Origin: Rutstroemia sp. NJR-2017a BVV2
Lineage: Eukaryota; Ascomycota; Leotiomycetes; Helotiales; Rutstroemiaceae
Direction: 5' to 3'
Length of the DNA: 64,000 nucleotides
NCBI GenBank assembly: GCA_002946415.1
Contig: NJPS01000058.1
Location: 310,001 to 374,000, forward strand
Part shown: positions 23,532-56,550 of the stretch, piece after piece
Numbering within the stretch: the first letter of the stretch is position 1
Layout: each line of letters begins with the position of its first letter
The notes under the pieces: generated by a model
The model's database searches: none
Told to the model about the DNA's origin: nothing
Seen by the model: the letters and a program-made list of their open reading frames with translations, nothing else
Made by a program: the position numbers and the translations under genes

Positions 23532-24360
23532 ATTTGTCTTGTTGAGACGCGATAGATGGGGTCCCTTTGGGGGTTGTGGTGGATTCCTCGTTTTTTGTTC
23601 GCATGAGATAGTTAGGAAACAACAAAGAGTAGAGTTCACGAGATTTAGGACACCCCAGAAAAGAGCCAACAAAAGGAGGTAGAAAGTCAAGTCGACATGA
23701 GGAGCAAGCAAGGAGGCGAGGAGTGCACCTGTGGGTGTAATTGTGAGTTCAAAGTATTCGGTTGAGAAGGCGATGGATGGTTGGCTGACAGTATATAGCT
23801 GGGAAGAACGGTAAAGGGGCGACGCGAAAGCAGGGAAAAGGTGATAAGTATTCGCGGAGGAGGAATTGAGCGGTTGGTTTCTCTTGTGGCGTTTGGATGG
23901 CAAGTTTCAGTAATGGGAAATTGGGATATGGAGCGGATAATCTGATGAATAGGATCATACTCGGTTAAGTTAATATGTTTATATAGTATAATAATGAAAG
24001 TGTCGCGATGTGTTCTACACTCTATCTGGCGATAGTCACAATGCTCTCCCACGTCTCCCCTAATGGTAGTAATGCATACGGAAGTATACTTCGTTGACCT
24101 TCGACATTGGACAAGATGTATTTTAGCAGGAAACACTGTCCTACGCAGAAAGCATCGCATCACAGAGTCACATGATTATCATGTGATACCTACCGTACAA
24201 GGATTCTCAAATGCCGATGTTAAACTTTGACATTCACCCCCTGTTCAGTCAACTCGTGGCAGAATACACACAAACTATAGGTGCAATGCTTCTTAAGTTA
24301 ATCACGTCTGATTCTAGTAGGTAAGGACATAAGGACCCTTATAAAGGATTATCTATATGA
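23532..24360. other. Intergenic region
   Basis: 829 bp. May hold a third exon of the small gene around 23683-23767. Otherwise promoter-like, with a TATA-like CTTATAAAGG at 24339. Confidence 0.4.
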
Positions 24361-25780
24361 ATGCGATACCCTTCAACCCCCACTAAGCTTCCTCCCCGTC
24401 CAGCCTCTGTGCAAGTCAAGATGCGACCTTTCCTCAACCTTCCCTTCTTTTCCTCCTCCTCCTCTTCATTCAGCTCCTATTTATCCCTCTTCTATCTCGC
24501 CTTCCTCTTTATAGCCCTACGTATATTTGGTGTTGTGTGCGACCTCCAATACCTTTTCCAAAGCGTCACTCTTTCGTCACGACAACCGACTCATTTCATA
24601 CTCGGTAATGATGGGAAATTGAGAGTAGATCGAAATTACGAGTTTTTGATTACGATATTTTCCGATCTGCATTATGGCGAAGAAGAAGATGGTTGGGGAA
24701 TCGACCAGGATGTTAATTCGACCAAGGTCGTTAGAGATATACTTGGGTGGGAAGATTCGAATTTGGTTGTGCTGAATGGTATACCTCATCCAGCCCCTAT
24801 CTAAATCGGAAACGGTGCCGAATGGATTAACTCACGAGGAAGAGGCTGATCAAGTCACAGGCGATCTCATAACAGGAGAAAATACCTTTCTAGAAAACTC
24901 CACCGCATATCTTGACACCGTCGTTGCACCCCTGGTCAAGAACAACATTTACTGGGCAAGCACCTACGGCAACCACGACTCCCAGTTTAATCTCTCGCGT
25001 GAAGCTTTGTTTCTCGAGGAATCCAAATACCAACTATCGTACACGCAGCACTCACCACCTGGTGTAGACGGTGTCACGAACTACTATCTTCCTATCTACC
25101 CACCCGTCGATTCTAAATCCCCGGATGACCCGCTTGCTATTCTCTGGTTCTTCGACTCCCAAGGCGGCGCGCCATTCCAAGCGTCGTCTGACAGCGAGAC
25201 TATCCCGAATTATGTAACTCCCTCCATTGTAGATTGGTTCACATCCACATCATCCCAGCTTACGGAAGAATACGGACGTAGTCTTCCAAGTCTGGCATTT
25301 GTACATATACCACCAACAGCCTTTCTCGAAAAGCAGGAAGAAGCGTTTGTTGATCCGGACGTCTATTTACCCCGTTATCCCGGACTGAATGCGGATGTAC
25401 CGTTAGCGGCGCAGGGAGATGGAACGCAAGATAAGCTGTTTATGGAGGCGCTGGTTGGGATGGAGGGGCTGCATTCGGTGTATTCGGGGCATGATCATGG
25501 GGATGCTTGGTGTGCGGATTTTCCAAAGGAGGGACTAGTAAAAGGGAGGGAGGACGAAAATGGGCCGTTTTTGTGTTTTTGTAAACATTCGGGGTATGGA
25601 GGTTATGGGACCTGGAATAGGGGGGCGAGGGTGGTGAGATTATGGTTTGGACTGGATGGAGAAGAAGAAGGGATGCAAGTCGATACTTGGGTGAGAATGG
25701 AGGATGGGGATGTGATTCAGATGGTCGGGTTGAATGCTACATATGGGACGGATACTTATCCCCCTTATGATGGACAGTAG
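24361..25780 (+). CDS. Dcr2-like calcineurin-fold metallophosphoesterase
   Basis: Exons are 24361-24778 and 24861-25780, giving 445 residues from ATG 24361, or 425 from ATG 24421 (MRPFLNLPFF). The second start would put the hydrophobic signal-anchor (LFYLAFLFIALRIFGVV) nearer the N-terminus and may be the real one. Metal-binding motifs of the family are present in order: FSDLHYGE, LNGDL (split by the intron), STYGNHDSQ and SGHDHGDAWC. Fungal relatives include Dcr2 of budding yeast and similar secretory or vacuolar phosphatases. A Ser-rich stretch precedes the membrane segment. The last 109 bp of this gene recur in damaged form at 31092-31222, on the far side of the HeLo/kinase block. Confidence 0.88.
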
Positions 25781-25858: not shown

Positions 25859-27554
25859 TTATCCTTTCATCACTTTTATATACTGCAGCAAAGAAGCTAT
25901 ATAATTATCTCTGCCAGTTTTAAGAGTATCTAGATTTCTTATAAGCAGATTCCTCATTTCGAACTTGAAGATATAAGTACAGACCTTTTCGATATACCTT
26001 ACTCCAATCAAGACACCATCCCTATCTTCAAACTCAGTTTGATCACCAAAGTCTATATTGTCTTCATCCAAGCAAGTTAAACAATTGACCACAACTTCCT
26101 TGTATCGCTCTCCCATTTGCCTAGGAAGCGCACGTTCTGCAAGAGCGACTAGATGTTTTTTCATAAGAGTAGGTTCGTTGAATGCACGATCTTGTAAAGA
26201 GATATCAAGACTTGGTCCAGGGATAGGCTCAGTTGCGTTATTCTCATAGCAGACAAATGACTCCCATAAGCCAATCTCTAGAAGAACAACACCCAGGCTG
26301 TAGATATCATGTTGCATGAGATAGTTTTCTTCCGGAATTGCACCCTGGCGTTGTGGATGATGATAAAGATTAACCTCCCAAGCCGAGTTCCCCGCTCGCC
26401 GTGTTCTCCCATCTGCGCTCCGGAATCGTTCAAAGCCTACAAGGAAAGTTGACCCAAGGACTGATTTGTTGTCTTGAAATACAAGAATGGTTTCGGGGCG
26501 GATAGTCTTGTGTACAAATCCAAGCGTGTGAATGTAGCTGATAGACTTGGCTAGCTGGTTTGCGATTTTGACTCGCTCAGTAAGAGTATGATTGGCCTGC
26601 GCTAAAAGACAACTGCGGAGACTTTGTGGCTTATTGCTGAGCTCGTTGGGAATTCGGAAAACAAAATCAAATGAAGATAGCGTTCTGTTGTCTGGTTTTG
26701 GAACCCGAATGACGCCCCGGCACTGAAGTAGGCCTAGGTTCAACGGGTCTGTACAAGAGAGCTTTCTTGCTAGCTCTCTCACATCTTGCGTTTGCAGATT
26801 AATGTCGCCGTCTGAATCGTAGGGGACCGAGTCTATCAGAAACCATCTGCTAAAATCACTTGTTTGGGCAACCTTGGCTGATGCAAATGGTATGGTACGC
26901 AATGTTGAATAGTCCAGGCCAGTTTCTGGGAGAAAAATCGACATTTGTCGAAGAGGCTGCTCCCTTGCAGACGCTCTGAAATCGCGGACACCAGGAAATG
27001 AAGATACAGCTGATCCATCTCTGGACAGCTCTCGATCAATGAGGGAGTTTGAAACCCGCAGAATCAAAAACCAAGATGGGTCGAACATTTTCTGCCATGA
27101 TGCTAAATCTTCAATGATTTCGTCCAGGTATGGTTTGACAAAGATGTATTTCCACCTTCGGACTTTTGCAATCTGATGGTCCGTTGACCTCTTTTTCTTT
27201 AGCAAGTTTTCAAGCTTAGATATTGCAAGCTTCAGTTTGCTAACTAGAACCTCCAGAATCTGAATTTGAATGTTTTGATGCACTTCATTTAGAGTCATCC
27301 AGATCTGCTTGAGAAAGTCTAGTTGTGTACTGGTTCGTTTCCAATAGCTTTTGACGGAGAGTACTCGTTCGTCAACTTCGGCTTCTGCGTTCTCGAAAGA
27401 TGCACATGTATCGATGAGGATTTTGCCGTATCTACATTTCATTAGAAGAGAGTTGAGTGACTACGGGTATATATACAAAGTATGTATGAACTTACTTGAA
27501 ACAAAAATCCGTCGTTCCGACGATGGCAAGAGCTAACCCTGCTGCTTCCGCCAT
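25859..27554 (-). CDS. HeLo-domain pseudokinase (MLKL-like architecture)
   Basis: Exons are 27554-27496 and 27431-25859, giving 543 residues. The N-terminus MAEAAGLALAIVGTTDFCFKYG and the helical segment to about residue 220 fit the fungal HeLo/prion-inhibition domain: CASFENAEAEVDERVLSV, WKRTSTQLDFLKQIW, KVRRWKYIFVKPYLDE and FDPSWFLILRV. HeLo domains form four-helix membrane-disrupting bundles, as in HET-S. Residues ~255-480 have a protein-kinase C-lobe outline (ISYIHTLGFVHKTIRPETILVF, LVGFERF, DIYSLGVVLLEIGLW). The HRD Asp is Thr (HKT, ~327-329), the following Asn is Thr and DFG is VGF, so it should be catalytically dead. No P-loop or VAIK Lys is seen. It is divergent from an active kinase-WD40 gene 801 bp away. 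HeLo assignment is by recognition without a profile search. Confidence 0.82.
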
Positions 27555-27743
27555 GATAGAACAGAGGAGGTTAAAGTAGTTTTGGTTGAATATTTTCTAT
27601 CAATGCTATCATTACCTCTGGCTTTCAGAAGAAGAATCTTCAGAACAAGCCTTCGGTTTCACTTAACGCCGTGGAAATTCGCGCCTGCTCTTACAAGGCA
27701 CAGTTATATTCAGGCAGATATGCAGGCTCACTGCCGTCGTAAC

Positions 27744-27812
27744 TGTGAGAATGGCCTATATATAACATAACAGACACTTCGCTAGAAGTGGTGTCACTTT
27801 TGGTTTCACAGT
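27744..27812. repeat. Direct repeat copy 1 with palindromic core
   Basis: Begins TGTGAGAATGGCC and ends GGTTTCACAGT. The core ACTTCGCTAGAAGT is a 5-bp-arm palindrome and extends imperfectly to GACACTTC/GAAGTGGTGTC. It is nearly identical to 28001-28062 apart from a ~7 bp TATATAAC-type insertion and one T/C change. Confidence 0.9.
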
Positions 27813-27939
27813 GATGAGCTCTAATTCCGCTTTCGTGGTTTAATAGGCCAAGCAGTTCATGCTCAGTGAGCACACAAACTTGAAATCCGGCAACCGGGGT
27901 CCCGATCTATACGAGAAGCTACCACTTAAGGCCTTCCAG

Positions 27940-27963
27940 ACTCCAGAGTACTGCCTCTGGAGT
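27940..27963. repeat. Hairpin with perfect 9-bp arms
   Basis: ACTCCAGAG and CTCTGGAGT flank a 6 bp loop. It lies between the two direct repeats, just before the G-rich tract. Confidence 0.85.
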
Positions 27964-27996
27964 GGGAGGGGGGGTGAGGGGGAGGACGAGGGGGGG
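27964..27996 (+). promoter_or_regulatory. G-quadruplex motif in the divergent promoter
   Basis: Four G-runs of 3, 7, 5 and 7 are separated by loops of 1, 3 and 7 nt, so the tract meets the canonical G3+N1-7 rule. It is unique in this window. Confidence 0.7.
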
Positions 27997-28000
27997 CGCA

Positions 28001-28062
28001 TGTGAGAATGGCCTATAATAACAGACACTTCGCTAGAAGTGGCGTCACTTTTGGTTTCACAG
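28001..28062. repeat. Direct repeat copy 2 with palindromic core
   Basis: Second copy of the element at 27744-27812 in the same orientation, 257 bp downstream, with the ACTTCGCTAGAAGT core intact. Confidence 0.9.
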
Positions 28063-28355
28063 TAACGCAACCGCCGCCACCAATAAAGTAAATGCGAGAA
28101 TATTACTTGGCTGCAGCGAGAAGTTGTTTCTAACGAATCAGATATAAACGTCGCACACCTCAATTACAAGTCAGCTAACGAATACAGCATATTGTCAAAA
28201 TTAGAACTCGGTGTTGAAAACCCGTTAGTATTGTAGGACAACACTGGTAAGACCTACTCAAGTTATAACACCGGGCTTTCTCATTCACACTCGGTTTTAG
28301 CTAATACAGTAATCTGCAAATCGAACTTCATCGCAAATCGTACATCATATATAAC

Positions 28356-30954
28356 ATGGCGTTTACATTATCATCATCTACTCCAGATATTGTACAGCTC
28401 TCGAAGCTTGATACTCAATTTCTTTCAGATCCGAAACGCATACAGCATATCAAATACGTTTTCGAAAATGAAAGATCGCGAAAAAAGGTATACAAGGAAG
28501 AAAGATGGAAGAAAGAGAAAGTACTAGGTCGTGGAGGTTTCGGGGTTGTCACCTTGGAGAAATGTATTCAAGGCGATAGCAAGGATAGATTGCGGGCAGT
28601 GAAAAAGATTCGAAAGGCGGATAATTATGAAAGGGAATTAGAAGCTATTGCTTTGTTTTCTCATGAAAAGGTAAGTTATCTACAAAATGGTTTATATTTG
28701 TAATAGCATTTCAGAACTATGCTAACATATTTCTTTCGTCCAGTACGCGCATTGTTTTGTAAAGTCATTCGGCTGGTACGATGATGAAGATGATATATAT
28801 ATCACTATGGAGTATTTTGAGAAAGGTGATTTACAGAAGCATCTCCAGTCACCTCTAGCGGAAATCGAAGGCCAGTGTATCGTATCCCAGGTTCTGGAAG
28901 GGTTGAGTTATATGCATCGCCACGGATTCGCTCACAGAGACTTGAAGCCAACTGTAAGTCAGGAGATATACTTCCCCATAACTCTAGACCCATAGGCTAA
29001 TCTATGAATAACACATAGAACATATTGGTCGTATCCAAAAAACCGGGGTGGTGGGTGAAGATTGCAGATTTTGGTATTAGCAAGAGGGCAATAGAAAAAG
29101 TTACCGCACTCCATACCTCTGCAGGCACATCTGCATTTGCAGCACCGGAAGTGCAACTAGGATCACAGAGCTCCACTGAGGCCAATTCATACACAAATAG
29201 TGTCGATATTTGGTCTCTAGGTGTGATCGCATTCCTTATACTTACTGGTGAAACCCTGTTCAAAGATCTACGACGCCTAAGCCAGTATGTTGCAGGAACC
29301 TTTCCATTTCCCGACGATACTTTACTAGCATATAACATCACCAAAGAGGCATGTATATTCATTCATAATCTACTCGCCGCAAGGCCCGAGGATCGTCCGA
29401 CCGCGGAAGATTGTTTGCAAAGTCTATGGTTAGCCTCCGTTAGAGAGTCTACAACTCTTCAGACACAAAGGTAATATTCCCTATCAAGGGTTCCACAATC
29501 CATGTTCTTTAATGAACATAATAGTACAGCAACTCTAATATATAGTTAGGGATGATCATATGTCAAGGCAGTCAGATACTCGCTCATTCTACGTGGATGT
29601 TCAACCCTCTGCAAGTTGGGAAACTCACGATCAGGCTTCATCGTTCACGCAGCATAGTGAAGGTGATAATCGTCCTGCAGAGAGGGAGGTTGGGGTGAAG
29701 TCCCAACAGAGAGAGCAGAATCGCAAACATGTCTCTCGAAGATCGGAAGAGCGCTTATACGATGATTGCCAATCAGATCAAGAAGTTTCTTCCAAACTAC
29801 AAGATCGAGAGGAGCCTGACGAACCAACACCGAGGCAAGAAGATGATGAGAACCGTGAAAGATCTAGCTCTAGATCTACACCAGCTATTATTTTTGACCC
29901 AAGAGGAGATATCATTCGAGCATCGAATGTCTCTGTGCCATCCCCAATAAAATCTACAGTCTTGGAAGAGGACGGCCATTTATCTCGAACATCACCAGCA
30001 AGGTCAAGAGCTCGAGGACGCAAGGAAATATTTTGGAAGGAAAAAGCAAAGTTGGAAGGCCATTTGAAAACGGTTTCTTCGATCGCTTTCTCACCAGATG
30101 GCAAGCTACTAGCTTCAGGCTCTCATGATCAAACAATCAGGCTTTGGGATATAACAGGCAACCTATCGCGAATACTCGAAGGCCATCCAGGTTGGATCCG
30201 CTCAGTTGCCTTTTCGCCAAATAGCAAGCTACTAGCTTCAGGCTCTAACGATCTAACGAGCCGGGTTTGGGATCTAGTAGCAGATGAGCTGCTATGTATA
30301 CTTCAAGCTCATCCAAAACGGGGTTTAGCAAGTAAACTGCTTGATGCATGTACCGACAGTTCACCAACGCCTATATCGATGACTTTTTCGCCAAATAGTA
30401 AAATACTAGTTTCGGGCTGCAAAGATGCAAAAATCCGGCTTTGGGATCTAACAGCAGGCAAATTACTACATACACTACAAGGCTATTCGGGTCCAGTTGA
30501 GTCAGTTGCTTTTTCGTCAGATGGTAAGATCCTAGCTTCAGGCTCTTTGTTTAAAAGAATCCGGTTTTGGAATCCAGCAACAGGCAAACTGTTAAAAACA
30601 CTGCAAACCCCTTCATCTATTCATTCAATTGCCTTCTCGCCAGATAATAGACTATTAGCTTCAGGCTCTTCCGATGGCAAAATCCAGCTTTGGGACCCAA
30701 CAGCAGGCGAATTACTACAAACACTGGAAGGCCATTCAGAAACAGTTAATTCAGTTACTTTTTCGTCAAATGATAAGATCCTAGCTTCAGGCTCTCGTGA
30801 TAAAACAATCCGACTTTGGGATCCAATAACAGGCGAATTACTACAAATACTGAAAGGTCATTCTGATTGGGTTACTTCAGTTGCATTTTCGCCAGATAAT
30901 AAGCTATTAGCTTCAGGCTCTTCTGATAAAACCATTCGACTTTGGGGGAACTAG
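28356..30954 (+). CDS. Ser/Thr protein kinase fused to a WD40 propeller
   Basis: Exons are 28356-28670, 28744-28953, 29019-29470 and 29550-30954, giving 793 residues. All three introns close in frame, so kinase and WD40 are one gene. The kinase domain (about 50-320) is complete: P-loop LGRGGFGVV, AVKK (Lys ~83), HRDLKPTN (Asp ~171), ADFG (Asp ~192) and FAAPEV. A ~170-residue polar, charged linker follows, rich in Arg, Glu and Ser. Seven WD40 repeats (about 494-793) then make one full propeller; typical units read SVAFSPDNKLLASGSSDKTIRLW. Repeats 6 and 7 are most alike, repeat 3 carries a short insert and repeat 5 is reduced (TPSSIHS). After the stop a Glu/Gln-rich frame continues with TAG codons. 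By analogy with fungal NLRs the WD40 part is probably a ligand sensor and the kinase its output. Confidence 0.9.
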
Positions 30955-31070: not shown

Positions 31071-31091
31071 GCGAGGAAGAGGCGGCGGGAG

Positions 31092-31222
31092 AGATGCAGG
31101 TAGATATTTGGGTGAGAATGGAGGTGGGGATATGATTCAGATGGTCGGTTGAATGCTATGTATGGGTCGGATTGAATGCTATGTATGGGCCGGATAGTTA
31201 TCCACCTTACGGTGGACAATAG
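31092..31222 (+). pseudogene. Frameshifted copy of the phosphoesterase 3' end
   Basis: Closely matches 25672-25780, the last 109 bp of the Dcr2-like gene, including the final stop (GGACAATAG against GGACAGTAG). It lacks one base in GGAGGATGGGG and another in GGTCGGGTTG. It also has a 23 bp tandem duplication (TTGAATGCTATGTATGGG...) at 31148-31194. It is in the same orientation as the parent. Nothing of the upstream catalytic part is present. Confidence 0.85.
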
Positions 31223-52240: not shown

Positions 52241-55200
52241 TTAGATTTTTTGTAAGATGGGAACCTTTAAGGACATTTGCGCTTCTTGGACCGCGTTCTG
52301 TAACTGATGAAAAGGAATATCTCTGTCTCCTTCTGGTAAACTGATCCTATACTTGTCATCCTTAACATACCATGTTAGATAATCCGAAAAGCTTCTATCC
52401 AACCAACTCTCGTAAAGGTTATTAAATGATTGGCTGTTAAGTTTGAGAAGAAAATAATAAAACCTTTCATCTGGTAAGGTCGTTTGCTGACCTAAGACTT
52501 TAGATGCAGCCCACCTAACATACCCCTCCGGATCTTTCAGTAGAGCTATTATAGCCTGTACGATCTCCTCTGGTAAAGCCGATTGCCCACCTAAGATCTT
52601 AACTGCAACCGACCTAATATACCTTTCTGGATCTTTCAGTAGAGCCGCTAAAGCCTGCACGATCTCCTCTGGTAAAGTCGATTGTCGATTCAAGGCCTCA
52701 ATTACAGCCCACCTAACACTCTTTTCTGGATCTTTCAGTAGAGCCGCTATAGTCTGTATGATCTCCTCTGGTAAGGCCGATTGTCGACCCAAGGCCTCAA
52801 CTGCAGCCGACCTAACAAGCTCATCTGGATCTTTCAGTAGAGCTATTATAGCCTGTATGATCTCCTCTAGTAAGGCCGATTGTTGACTTAAAGCCCGAAC
52901 TACAGCTAACCTAACACTCTTTTCTGGATCTTTCAGTAGAGCCGCTATAGTCTGTATGATCTCCTCTGATAAGGCTGATTGTCGACTTAAGGCCTGAACT
53001 ACAGCCGACCTAATATGCCCTACTGGATCTTTTAGTAAAGCTGATATAGCCTGTATAATCTCCTCTGGTAAGGCCGATTGTCTACTTAAGGCCTGAACTA
53101 CAGCTAACCTAACATACCACTCCGGATCTTTTAGTAAAGCCGTTATAGTCTGTACGATCTCTTCTGATAAGACCGATTGTCCACTTAAGACCTGAACTGC
53201 AGCCGACCTAATATGCCCTTCCGGATCTTTTAGTAGAGCTACTATAGTCTGTATAATCTCCTCTGATAAGGCCGACTGTCCACTTAAGACCTGAATAGCA
53301 GCAATCCTAAAAAGCCCATCTGGATCTTTGAGTAGAGCCGTCATAGTCTGTACGATCTCCTCTGGTAAGGTCGATTGTCGACTTAAGACCTCAATTGCAG
53401 CCGACCTAACAAGCCTTTCCGGATCTTTCAGTAGAGCTGCTATAGTCTGTACGATCTCCTCTGGTAAGACCGATTGTAAACTTAAGGCCTCAACTGCAAC
53501 CGACCTAATATACCCTTCCGGATCTTTCAGTAGAGCCGCTACGGCCTGTACGATCTCCTCTGGCAGGGCCTTATAATGGCGCTGAAATATACTCAGGGCC
53601 GCTGTTTTCAATCTAATTGAGACATCATTTTCCAGATAAGAAACTATAAGCTTTATGATAGCTGGTGATAGTCTTGGTCTTGCAGTCAGCGAATTCAGAA
53701 TTTTCACTTTTATATCCTCGGATTCTTTTTGTAAGACATCCTTTAGAATTTTTTCTGGAAATTCCATCTCGGCTGCTAATTGTGAACGTCCTATCTGATT
53801 GAATGCAAAATTGCATTCAAACAACAGCCAATGTTTCAATTGGCCTTCTAGATGCTTTCGAAGCTGGTTGAACTCTGAGGTCTTCTGCGACAGAGCTATT
53901 TCGCCTAGACAATGCATAACCAGCCGTTGATGCACTGGACCCAAGAGGTCACGCGGCTCGTCTTCAATCGTCTGGAAGAAGCGAAGCGTCCCGTTCCCCT
54001 CCTCAGCGTCGAGTAAGCCGGCAACGAACCGCCAGAAGACATTGTAGCGTGCGTTATATTTGTGTTCATGGAGGTAGTGGACAGCATTTTCTCTAGAGTA
54101 GACAAGTCCGCCTCGCCGAGTCTCTTGAGTTTTGAGCTCCGGCCATTCAAGATCTTGGATAGAGGTCCACTGCCGTACAAAATACCGTGCTGCAAAGTAC
54201 TCTTGATAGGTCAGGTGTAAAAAGTGATAGTCTTCTGCTGATGGGTTTGATCTTCGCAGAAAGGAAAGGCATGGCAAAGTCCGGTCGAGTAAGAGACTTG
54301 GCACAAAGCAGTCGGCTATGGTGTTTCGATGCTCTATCCCAAAGTCAATTATATCGTTATGCAGCCCAGTGAAGGCAAGGTACTCTAGAAAAGAGATCTC
54401 ATCCTTGACGAAGCCTTCAGTTTTTACTCGACTAGCTTCTTGGATAAAGCTTTCTGTCAGTAGTTTCCCGTTATATGTTTTCTCCAATCGCAAGATATCC
54501 TTCTTCCATAATCGATGCTCGATAGCTTGGTACATAGCTGTCATAGTCTCTGGTGCAGCTTTGGAAAGGGAGCTTTCATTCCAGGTGTAACACAGCGCAT
54601 CCAACTGGATCGGGATCCGAACGAGTCCTTGAATAAGCCAATGATCTTTGAGAAACCACTGAATTTTGCTAGCCTTTGGATCGATTTTGGCCGTTGCTAG
54701 ATCGGTGAAGGCTTTGTCGATATAAGTATTTACTTGATCCGGGTAGAATCCAATCGTTTCCAATTCCAGGTCAGGATATAGATTATATGAAAATCTCGCA
54801 AGTGGCCGGGATGTGATGATGACGTTGGGCAGCTCTAAGAGAAATTTGAGAAATTGGTGCATTTCGTTGTCTTTATCCAAGCCCTCGGAAACTTCATCCA
54901 GACCATCGAGGACGAAAAGAGTTCTACCAAACTTGGTAGCATCTAATTCTCTTTCCAATTCCTTAGCGAGGTACTCGCGGGTTGGAGTCTTAAGGAAAAA
55001 GTCCCGGAGAAACAGACTCTCAAGATTGTACCCCTTTTCAGGCTTTCTTTTTAGGTTCCGTAACGGGACCCAGAGTACGCGGTCAAACAAGTCGTTCCAT
55101 ATAGGGTCCTTGCAGTCCTTGCGGTTCTTGTGGTTTTTGAAATCATGGACTATCTTTTTGCACAAGGTAGTCTTGCCAACTCCGGCTCGTCCTCGGATGA

Positions 55201-56550
55201 AGATTCTTCTTGGCTGTATAGTATGGCCATCGGGTCCCTTACGTGGGTTGAAAAGTGTCTTCAGCTCGACCTGGATGTCCTTGTCCGGTGTCTCGATCTT
55301 TAGTCGAGCGAGGAGTGAAAACGGATCAATTTTTGATCCTTCTGAGTGGGCTACATCGCGACCCGGGTGCTCCACAATAGCCAGATTAATATAGCACTGA
55401 TCCATTGACAGCTGTTCGCCTGATAATCGGTCGATCTTGAGCATATCCGCAGTATAGTATTCATTACATATCCAGGCATCGGCTTTGTCGATAAGTCGGT
55501 TCTCATAGATTTCGTGAAGAATTATTCTAACCTCGCCAGTAACAGCAATATATCCCGGATCGTCAGGGCCATAGAACTTGTTCATCTGATTATGGCGACG
55601 AGCAAGGGGAATTGGATTTGTAACGATGTCGAGACGGGCGGAACTACTGTCAACAAGCTGGAAGGTATTAGTGAGTTGCTGATAGCTCGAATGCTATTGT
55701 ACTAAAGGGGATTGGCCCGGGTAGTGAAAATGTTTCAGACTTACTAGCTTTGGTTTGCTTAGAATATCTGCGAACCATGAGGGAAGCGGGACCTTCCGCA
55801 AGAGATTGCCTTTTTCTTTTTCATAAAAAATAGCTAACTTACACGGTTGATCTCGTTGCAGATAGGTTTGTGTGAACTCTGCCACTAAATTCTCAAGAAA
55901 GCTAGTCGATTTCTTCACACTGTCAAGCAATCCAGTGACTTGTTTGTCTCCGAGCCTGGCATAGCCCCTCAGAAAGGTTACTGCAGCCCCGGCAATATCC
56001 TGGAATGCAGTCCCTCTGAAAGGCGTAGCAAGGAAGACTATGCCCCCAGTCGCTCTCCATAGAGAAGTATATTTCTTCTCGGACCGAGCAGCGATAACAA
56101 TAGCCTGAATCAGGACGATACCACCCAGGCATGAGGCAATAAACAGGACAGGTCGACTCTCGTCTGCGCCAGGTCGAGATTCAATACTCAGCAATAGGCT
56201 CCTAGCAAGCTCTGGGATTGTCATCTCGATCGTACTTCGTTCTTTAAAGAGACTAGCTGGCCAGTCGATAGTGAAGATTCGCGCAGTTGGAAACGCCGTT
56301 GGGAGCATTTCTTGATCCTGGAGCCAGTTGATAGTCCTGTTCGGATTGCTGGAACGCCATATCCACGTATCCGGCGATTTTGTATCGAGGCCATGGATGG
56401 CGATGATGTCAACGCCTGTTTCAGTCCCGTCGTTTTTAGGGTAGACTTGGGAAAGACGGACACCTTGTCGTGGAGATTGCTGGTTCCGGTCGGCCTATAC
56501 CTGATTAGCAGATGCGCATCAGCCAAATTTGCGTTAGCATGAAGTACCAT
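52241..56550 (-). CDS. NLR: alpha/beta-hydrolase, NACHT, HEAT-like repeats
   Basis: Well-supported exons are 56494-55745 (250 codons) and 55657-52241 (1138 codons); the 87 bp intron joins KPKL to LVDSSSARLD. The N-terminus is unresolved: the simplest model is an ATG at 56550 followed at once by a 53 bp intron (GTACTT...TATAG). Domains in order: an alpha/beta-hydrolase (VDIIAIHGLDTKSPDTWIW, then FIASCLGGIVLI) with Cys where lipases have the nucleophile Ser; and a NACHT with Walker A GRAGVGKTT (nt ~55195-55166) and Walker B TLFVLDGLDEVSE. A helical region follows (EDYHFLHLTYQEYFAARYFVR, the winged-helix end), then 11 near-identical 33-residue HEAT-like repeats and a short C-terminal cap. Fungal NLRs of this kind act in allorecognition and possibly immunity. 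About 1389 residues. Confidence 0.9.
52478..53566 (-). repeat. Eleven 99-bp tandem repeats encoding HEAT-like units
   Basis: Exactly 11 units of 33 codons without indels. The consensus framework is LPEEIIQTIAALLKDP, then a variable stretch, VRSAAVEALS and RQSA. A more diverged unit precedes them (SPAIIKLIVSYLENDVSIR). Differences cluster in the 4-6 residues after KDP (EGY, ERL, DGL, EGH, EWY, VGH, EKS, DEL, EKS, ERY, EGY). Confidence 0.95.

Follow-up and report, generated by a model that had tools for sequence, protein, structure and literature searches.

A divergent HELL-pseudokinase and kinase-WD40 gene pair in Rutstroemia, a candidate NLR-free cell death module with linked counterparts in other Ascomycota

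In the reviews consulted, animal necroptosis is connected with cell death in fungi through the killer bundle and through RHIM-like amyloids. The effector of the animal RIPK3/MLKL system combines a helical bundle with a pseudokinase devoid of catalytic residues. In the fungal HET-S/NWD2 and HELLP/PNT1 systems (Podospora and Chaetomium), the genes are adjacent and a HeLo/HELL effector lies beside a repeat protein. According to PMC12881547, more than 80% of the gasdermin genes in fungi cluster with protease genes, and a large fraction of these proteases have WD40, ANK, or TPR; in these clusters (e.g., the CHAT-TPR type), a pore-former adjoins an enzyme that is often fused to such repeats. Plant RPW8-type CC domains and fungal HeLo (PF14479)-DUF7580 proteins are also among the closest known systems. 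HELL-pseudokinases are mentioned in a 2025 review, and no description of a kinase partner was found in the portions of the literature searched; within that scope, the original prediction that no such system had been described holds for the kinase partner and not for the effector.

The gene pair described here lies in a 64,000-nt stretch of Rutstroemia sp. NJR-2017a BVV2 (NJPS01000058.1, positions 310,001-374,000; GCA_002946415.1), referred to as the window. It resembles RIPK3/MLKL in its effector, a helical bundle joined to a pseudokinase without catalytic residues, and in having a candidate dedicated active kinase and a candidate activation-loop acceptor. Unlike RIPK3/MLKL, the fungal partner bears WD40, TPR, or no repeats, the genes are adjacent, the bundle is of the HELL type, and phosphorylation is a step that we infer. 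Compared with HET-S/NWD2 and HELLP/PNT1, a kinase replaces the NLR and the effector ends in a pseudokinase. Compared with the gasdermin clusters, a kinase and a HELL-pseudokinase take the place of protease and gasdermin, and a kinase-like domain is part of the presumed pore-former; the parallel with these clusters speaks for the module proposed below.

The gene pair and its two proteins

The pair is confirmed as real. The two genes are divergently transcribed (Table 1), with 801 bp between their start codons, in agreement with the predicted common promoter region of about 800 bp. Splice sites of both gene models were inferred from the sequence. The minus-strand gene has a likely 55-nt 3' intron, after removal of which the protein ends in ...IEKILLKLAEIII, resembling the ILLKLDEIVV of many aligned relatives. 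Some annotated relatives, including Rutstroemia P0001, read through this intron, as did the originally predicted open reading frame (end at 25859), and the gene end was revised to 25897. The closest named relatives, also in Rutstroemia, are annotated as "HET-s domain protein."

Table 1. Features of the gene pair, in window coordinates
Feature	Position	Strand	Basis
HELL-pseudokinase gene (3 exons, 512 aa)	27496-27554, 25985-27431, 25897-25929	-	Splice model and C-terminus alignment
N-terminal HELL helical bundle (~residues 1-149, split by intron 1)	27044..27554	-	Predicted helices and HeLo-like profile match
Pseudokinase domain (~residues 183-512)	25897..26944	-	
HKT replacing HRD (residues 327-329)	26504..26512	-	Sequence and alignment
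VGF replacing DFG (residues 351-353)	26432..26440	-	Sequence and alignment
Codon of Thr363 (activation-loop Thr, candidate phospho-acceptor)	26402..26404	-	Alignment
Shared divergent intergenic region (801 bp)	27555..28355	.	Gene models
Kinase-WD40 gene (4 exons, 793 aa)	28356-28670, 28744-28953, 29019-29470, 29550-30954	+	Gene model
Intact Ser/Thr kinase domain (residues 52-313, two introns inside)	28509..29432	+	Pkinase E 1.4e-51
HRD of partner kinase	28933-28941	+	Rechecked coordinates
DFG of partner kinase	29067-29075	+	Rechecked coordinates
Conserved linker peptide PSASWET (30-odd residues past kinase domain)	29605..29625	+	Sequence comparison
Seven WD40 repeats (126-nt unit, DNA partly self-similar)	30043..30945	+	Profile match

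Judged by full-domain profile homology, the N-terminus of the minus-strand protein is a member of the HeLo superfamily, of the HELL type (PF17111). A profile built from 34 relatives aligned with PF17111 stretches (8 of the 18 own-genome matches; 7 over the curated cut-off) with an hhalign probability of 93.3% (E 2.7e-7; columns 4-139 to 1-132) and a score of 48.3, compared with 19.3 for the best of 100 column shuffles and 16.5 for a reversed control. The absence of a profile match, which the original prediction had listed as evidence against itself, was therefore not what we found. Searched directly against Pfam, the window protein gave a sub-threshold match to PF17111 (E 0.095; residues 3-130). 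In relative P0001, helices were predicted at residues 3-30, 37-66, 69-103, 108-139, and 143-162 (pLDDT 84.6).

The N-terminus had been described as HeLo-like, which stands at the superfamily level. Membership in the classical HeLo family (PF14479) was rejected: none of 21 family members matched it, and the window gene was not among the 11 own-genome PF14479 matches at E up to 1. PF14479 was also absent among the best 25 of 57 families listed for 34 members. Aligned with five own-genome PF14479 stretches, the N-terminal profile gave a weak result (hhalign probability 14.8%; 1.8% with a smaller profile) that still exceeded 100 shuffles (score 27.5 versus at most 17.9). Own-genome HeLo and HELL stretches also align weakly with each other (probability 1.7%), so that a weak result in such a setting is compatible with kinship.

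Searched against PDB sequences, the N-terminal profiles gave only matches with E 0.25 or worse, and Foldseek with the N-terminal model returned none at E up to 0.001. MLKL 4HB and HET-s HeLo chains were absent among the 50 Foldseek matches listed for this model; plant CC-R and Rx CC were present. In 31 of the 34 relatives, the domain has its most hydrophobic 17-mer at the extreme N-terminus (start at residue 8 or earlier). In the window protein this 17-mer lies at residue 74, outside helix 1, which counts against the mechanism proposed below. Membrane targeting and cell killing by the HELL domain are putative.

An alignment of 121 sequences (the window protein and 120 relatives) shows that the pseudokinase state of the C-terminal domain is conserved. 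The HRD and DFG aspartates are kept in none of them (0/121 each), and the catalytic asparagine, replaced by Thr334 in the window protein, is retained in 10. The predicted loss of all three motifs is borne out. The position of Thr363 holds Thr in 120 sequences and Ser in 1, a conservation that may be structural. A helical bundle followed by a pseudokinase is an MLKL-like architecture.

The partner protein is, as predicted, an intact kinase fused to a seven-bladed WD40 domain: its Pkinase match spans positions 2 to 263 of the 263-position profile (E 1.4e-51), and seven stretches match WD40 (E 1.2e-83). Residues 1-493 match kinase families only in Pfam, with no NACHT or NB-ARC; among the best 25 of 69 families listed for the WD40 part, there were WD40 and propeller families and again no NACHT or NB-ARC.

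Recurrence of the pairing

A second divergent pair of the same two families is present in this genome. To the 19 assemblies represented in both homologue lists we added one protein holding both parts, giving a table of 20 assemblies; Letrouitia, present in the lists as different species, was not counted. Linkage was found in 13 of the 20: (i) 10 with consecutive locus tags (differing by 1), (ii) 2 with equal-sized contigs, and (iii) 1 with a single open reading frame. In these other fungi linkage was judged from protein names, tags, and contig sizes, which give adjacency and neither orientation nor distance. The linked cases spread over four Ascomycota classes. Chance adjacency was rejected on these 10 consecutive-tag cases, all in other assemblies, and on the second pair in the same genome. 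Adjacency is widespread, and its confinement to this genome, the other outcome listed as evidence against the original prediction, was not what we found. Counting against a module, seven assemblies were unlinked among the matches listed (five Penicillium, one Aspergillus, and one lichen).

For 15 pairs, the gene distances of the two families correlate (Mantel r 0.86; 0 of 5,000 permutations as high), a correlation that arises also through shared species history; the two trees differ in places. The pairing of HELL-pseudokinase and partner kinase is well supported. The catalytic Lys, the HRD Asp, and the DFG Asp are present in each of the 15 partner kinases, as is the Glu. Their C-terminal repeats are WD40 in eight and TPR in two; five have none, so that the pair does not depend on the repeat, which counts against the proposed module. 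The linker peptide was found in 51 of 117 sequences tested in a restricted count, after 4 of 121 were dropped for a missing anchor; a wider count extends into the WD40 repeats of the tails, where similar sequence mimics the peptide. One species (P0190), listed among the unlinked kinases and outside the 20-assembly table, was left out of the count. The peptide is missing from the Aspergillus karnatakaensis kinase and from the kinase of the second Rutstroemia pair, which counts against the proposed module.

Proposed mechanism and alternative explanations

The original interpretation survives with respect to the HeLo superfamily, the pseudokinase, the intact kinase-propeller neighbor, and wide adjacency; phosphorylation of the pseudokinase by the kinase, killing by the HELL domain, and the role of WD40 as sensor are putative. 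We consider it somewhat probable that the pair is a sensor and effector of regulated cell death that works without an NLR, and in which the kinase activates the HELL-pseudokinase through its dead kinase domain. The plus-strand product would be a kinase of the cytosol that binds an internal or foreign ligand through its C-terminal part, which is WD40 here and TPR or repeat-free in some relatives; recognition would free or gather the kinase. The kinase would then dock on its pseudokinase partner, perhaps via the linker peptide (PSASW), and phosphorylate it, most likely at Thr363. Phosphorylation would release the HELL bundle, whose hydrophobic first helix would permeabilize the plasma membrane and cause cell death, as for RIPK3 acting on MLKL.

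Pseudokinases can also serve as allosteric partners of live kinases, as in STRAD-LKB1. The HELL-pseudokinase might in this way switch its kinase on or off, the output being phosphorylation of other proteins and the bundle a scaffold or membrane tether. Linkage, correlated distances, and a strongly conserved pseudokinase suit a stable complex of this kind; we nevertheless regard it as unlikely, since HELL homology and the hydrophobic N-terminal helix of most relatives indicate a membrane effector and the domains follow one another as in MLKL. Co-inheritance would equally suit a guard of opposite sign, in which phosphorylation or binding by the kinase holds the HELL-pseudokinase in check, and loss of the kinase or its ligand, or an attack on either, leads to death. 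Divergent linked pairs are typical of poison/antidote couples. HELL-pseudokinases are, however, unlinked to a partner-type kinase among the matches listed in 7 of the 20 assemblies, and an unlinked antidote, while possible, is less safe, making this explanation quite unlikely.

A decoy function, in which the pseudokinase attracts pathogen effectors that hit kinases and the adjoining kinase reports its modification, would fit the variable C-terminal part of the partners and an NLR-rich genome, in which NACHT was matched 49 times at E up to 0.001, in some cases on duplicated contigs. It appears highly unlikely given the catalytic residues kept in 15 of 15 partners and the effector-type HELL domain on the pseudokinase protein. 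Amyloid templating as in HET-S/NWD2 or HELLP/PNT1 is hardly credible, and RHIM signaling unlikely. A HeLo-type effector does adjoin a WD40 protein, and a RHIM-like tetrad (the bare pattern [IV]Q[VIL]G, to which the amyloid search was confined) is present in 7 of 120 HELL-pseudokinases and, as VQLG, in the window kinase. This VQLG, however, comes after APE and is part of the folded kinase domain, and, unlike in RIPK3/MLKL, none of the 13 other linked partners has the tetrad, nor does the HELL-pseudokinase of the window. NACHT and NB-ARC are missing from the families listed for the partner.

Since the pair is co-located in distantly related fungi, fungi may have a kinase-triggered death switch like that of animal necroptosis. 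More broadly, it is plausible, if short of probable, that filamentous fungi possess a phosphorylation-triggered, necroptosis-like pathway that uses kinases, many of them repeat-bearing, as immune sensors in place of NLRs or amyloids, each inherited with its own HELL-pseudokinase executioner, with exchange of WD40 and TPR altering what is sensed. If true, the conserved couple of kinase and pseudokinase would provide the middle step now missing between necroptosis and fungal death and add kinases to proteases and NLRs as fungal death sensors. Fungi would then have, in a compact sensor-effector gene pair, a helical killer domain that a kinase controls through a pseudokinase, and the pair would give genetic access to how a dead kinase holds back and then releases a killer bundle.

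HeLo-DUF7580 proteins likewise join a bundle to a degenerate kinase, and their bundle matches a different profile from that of the window protein. DUF7580 (PF24476) matched 2 of 21 HELL-pseudokinase family members (best E 0.0019) and did not match the window protein at E up to 1. Two own-genome HeLo-DUF7580 proteins that were scanned carry both Pfam matches. Four HeLo-DUF7580 proteins align to the window pseudokinase, three with HK[SG] and xGF and the fourth with xGF alone. Among the kinase matches listed, a single one lies within 100 kb of a HeLo-DUF7580 gene, at a distance of 6.4 kb (C72).

Pairing of the HELL-pseudokinase and kinase genes across fungi

The pairing of a HELL-pseudokinase gene with a partner-type kinase gene is conserved in fungi. 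The comparison covered the best 120 of 1205 HELL-pseudokinase matches in one search, the best 120 of 1925 in another, and the best 120 of 1602 matches for the partner-type kinase. The pairing table was compiled by eye, with linkage read from locus tags and from contigs of equal size; its 10 rows with consecutive tags were additionally checked for consistency. Among the matches listed, 19 assemblies or species were present on both sides, and Talaromyces pinophilus constitutes a twentieth case, in which a protein from the kinase matches itself contains both parts. Of these 20, 10 assemblies combined consecutive locus tags with equal-sized contigs (i.e., Ciborinia camelliae, Brigantiaea leucoxantha, two assemblies of Endocarpon pusillum, Psora testacea, Oculimacula yallundae, two Polycauliona, one Teratosphaeriaceae, and Malbranchea cinnamomea). 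The original prediction had left open whether the adjacency occurs in this genome alone, and these 10 assemblies, among the matches listed, answer that it does not. Two further cases, Westerdykella ornata and Aspergillus karnatakaensis, are linked by an equal-sized contig only, and the Talaromyces case is a single open reading frame with the kinase followed by the HELL-pseudokinase, perhaps a merged annotation.

The two families were unlinked in 7 of the 20 cases among the matches listed: Pseudocyphellaria aurata, Penicillium fimorum, P. glandicola, P. malachiteum (whose tags belong to different assemblies), P. alfredii, P. olsonii, and Aspergillus egyptiacus. A closer partner may be hidden in these cases, because each search is represented by its best 120 matches and each cluster by its longest contig. 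Linked cases occur in Lecanoromycetes, Leotiomycetes, Eurotiomycetes, and Dothideomycetes (lineages checked for six taxa), with the last assignment resting on Westerdykella, which is linked via an equal-sized contig. The Teratosphaeriaceae case also belongs to Dothideomycetes.

Gene structures and a conserved linker peptide

Four exons make up the plus-strand gene, whose product comprises a complete Ser/Thr kinase (Pkinase E value, 1.4e-51), a linker of ~180 residues, and seven WD40 repeats, in agreement with the intact kinase and seven-blade propeller originally predicted. The minus-strand gene has three exons, with splice sites read from the sequence. Its likely last intron (55 nt; GTCTGT...TAG) had been overlooked in the original prediction; with this intron removed, the C-terminus agrees with those of many relatives. 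The closest named relatives of this gene among the matches listed are from Rutstroemia (Leotiomycetes), at 88% identity. A degenerate HELL-pseudokinase relative (L003; positions 71587-72168 of contig C15 in the same genome) has eight stop codons within the match.

Features of the gene pair and its surroundings (window positions)
Feature	Position	Strand
Neighboring upstream gene	24300-25780	
3' end of the upstream gene, copied beyond the pair	25669-25753	
HELL-pseudokinase gene	25897-27554	-
46-nt promoter repeat, first copy	27767-27812	
46-nt promoter repeat, second copy	28018-28063	
Kinase-WD40 gene	28356-30954	+
PSASWET, short conserved peptide between kinase and repeats	29605-29625	+
Purine-rich 12-nt tandem repeat, directly 3' of the WD40 stop codon	30957-31005	
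Copy of the upstream gene's 3' end (88% identical)	31090-31172	
NLR-type gene, NACHT protein with HEAT repeats	52241-55585	-

The linker peptide was found in 51 of 117 sequences in a restricted count, compared with a mean of 1.3 and a maximum of 5 after shuffling. Among the 15 kinases that belong to pairs, the peptide or a close variant was recognized by eye in 13; it is absent from those of A. karnatakaensis and of a second divergent HELL-pseudokinase/kinase pair in the window's own genome. Among the kinases of unlinked species, a variant was present in one of eight tested, and these sequences are also more distant. The lichen form reads EPSASWSTQDQ, the peptide is duplicated in Ciborinia, and in several Clonostachys kinases it forms the extreme C-terminus. 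We propose it as a candidate docking peptide for the pseudokinase.

Likeness to known cell death systems

In fungi, >80% of gasdermin genes reportedly lie in clusters with protease genes, a large share of which carry WD40, ANK, or TPR (PMC12881547). The pair described here follows a like logic, except that the enzyme is a kinase and the presumed killer is a HELL-pseudokinase. With respect to RIPK3/MLKL, the model for the module originally proposed, the likeness of the couple lies on the effector side. Using the bare RHIM pattern, we found one RHIM-like tetrad (VQLG) in the window kinase, directly after APE and within the folded domain. The same bare pattern occurred in none of the 13 other linked partner kinases and in 7 of the best 120 HELL-pseudokinases. 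For the couple, we infer the direction of control, a ligand, a phosphosite, and membrane attack. In the titles and abstracts listed from a literature collection with few subscription papers and no preprints, no description of the partner kinase was found, and an earlier description may exist.

Intergenic region and genomic surroundings

The two divergent genes are separated by 801 bp, matching the shared 800-bp promoter originally noted for them. The two copies of the repeat in this shared promoter are 98% identical and include a small palindrome; its 22-nt core recurs at two further places in the genome, with one to two mismatches. The copy of the upstream gene's 3' end located beyond the pair is the sole other genomic match found for that segment. 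This flanking copy suggests that the pair was inserted as one unit, with flanking duplication. The NLR-type gene lies ~21 kb from the pair. The fungal assembly containing the window comprises 43.4 Mb. For several matches, the coordinates are identical on two of its contigs (C25 and C74), and the assembly therefore probably contains duplicated contigs.
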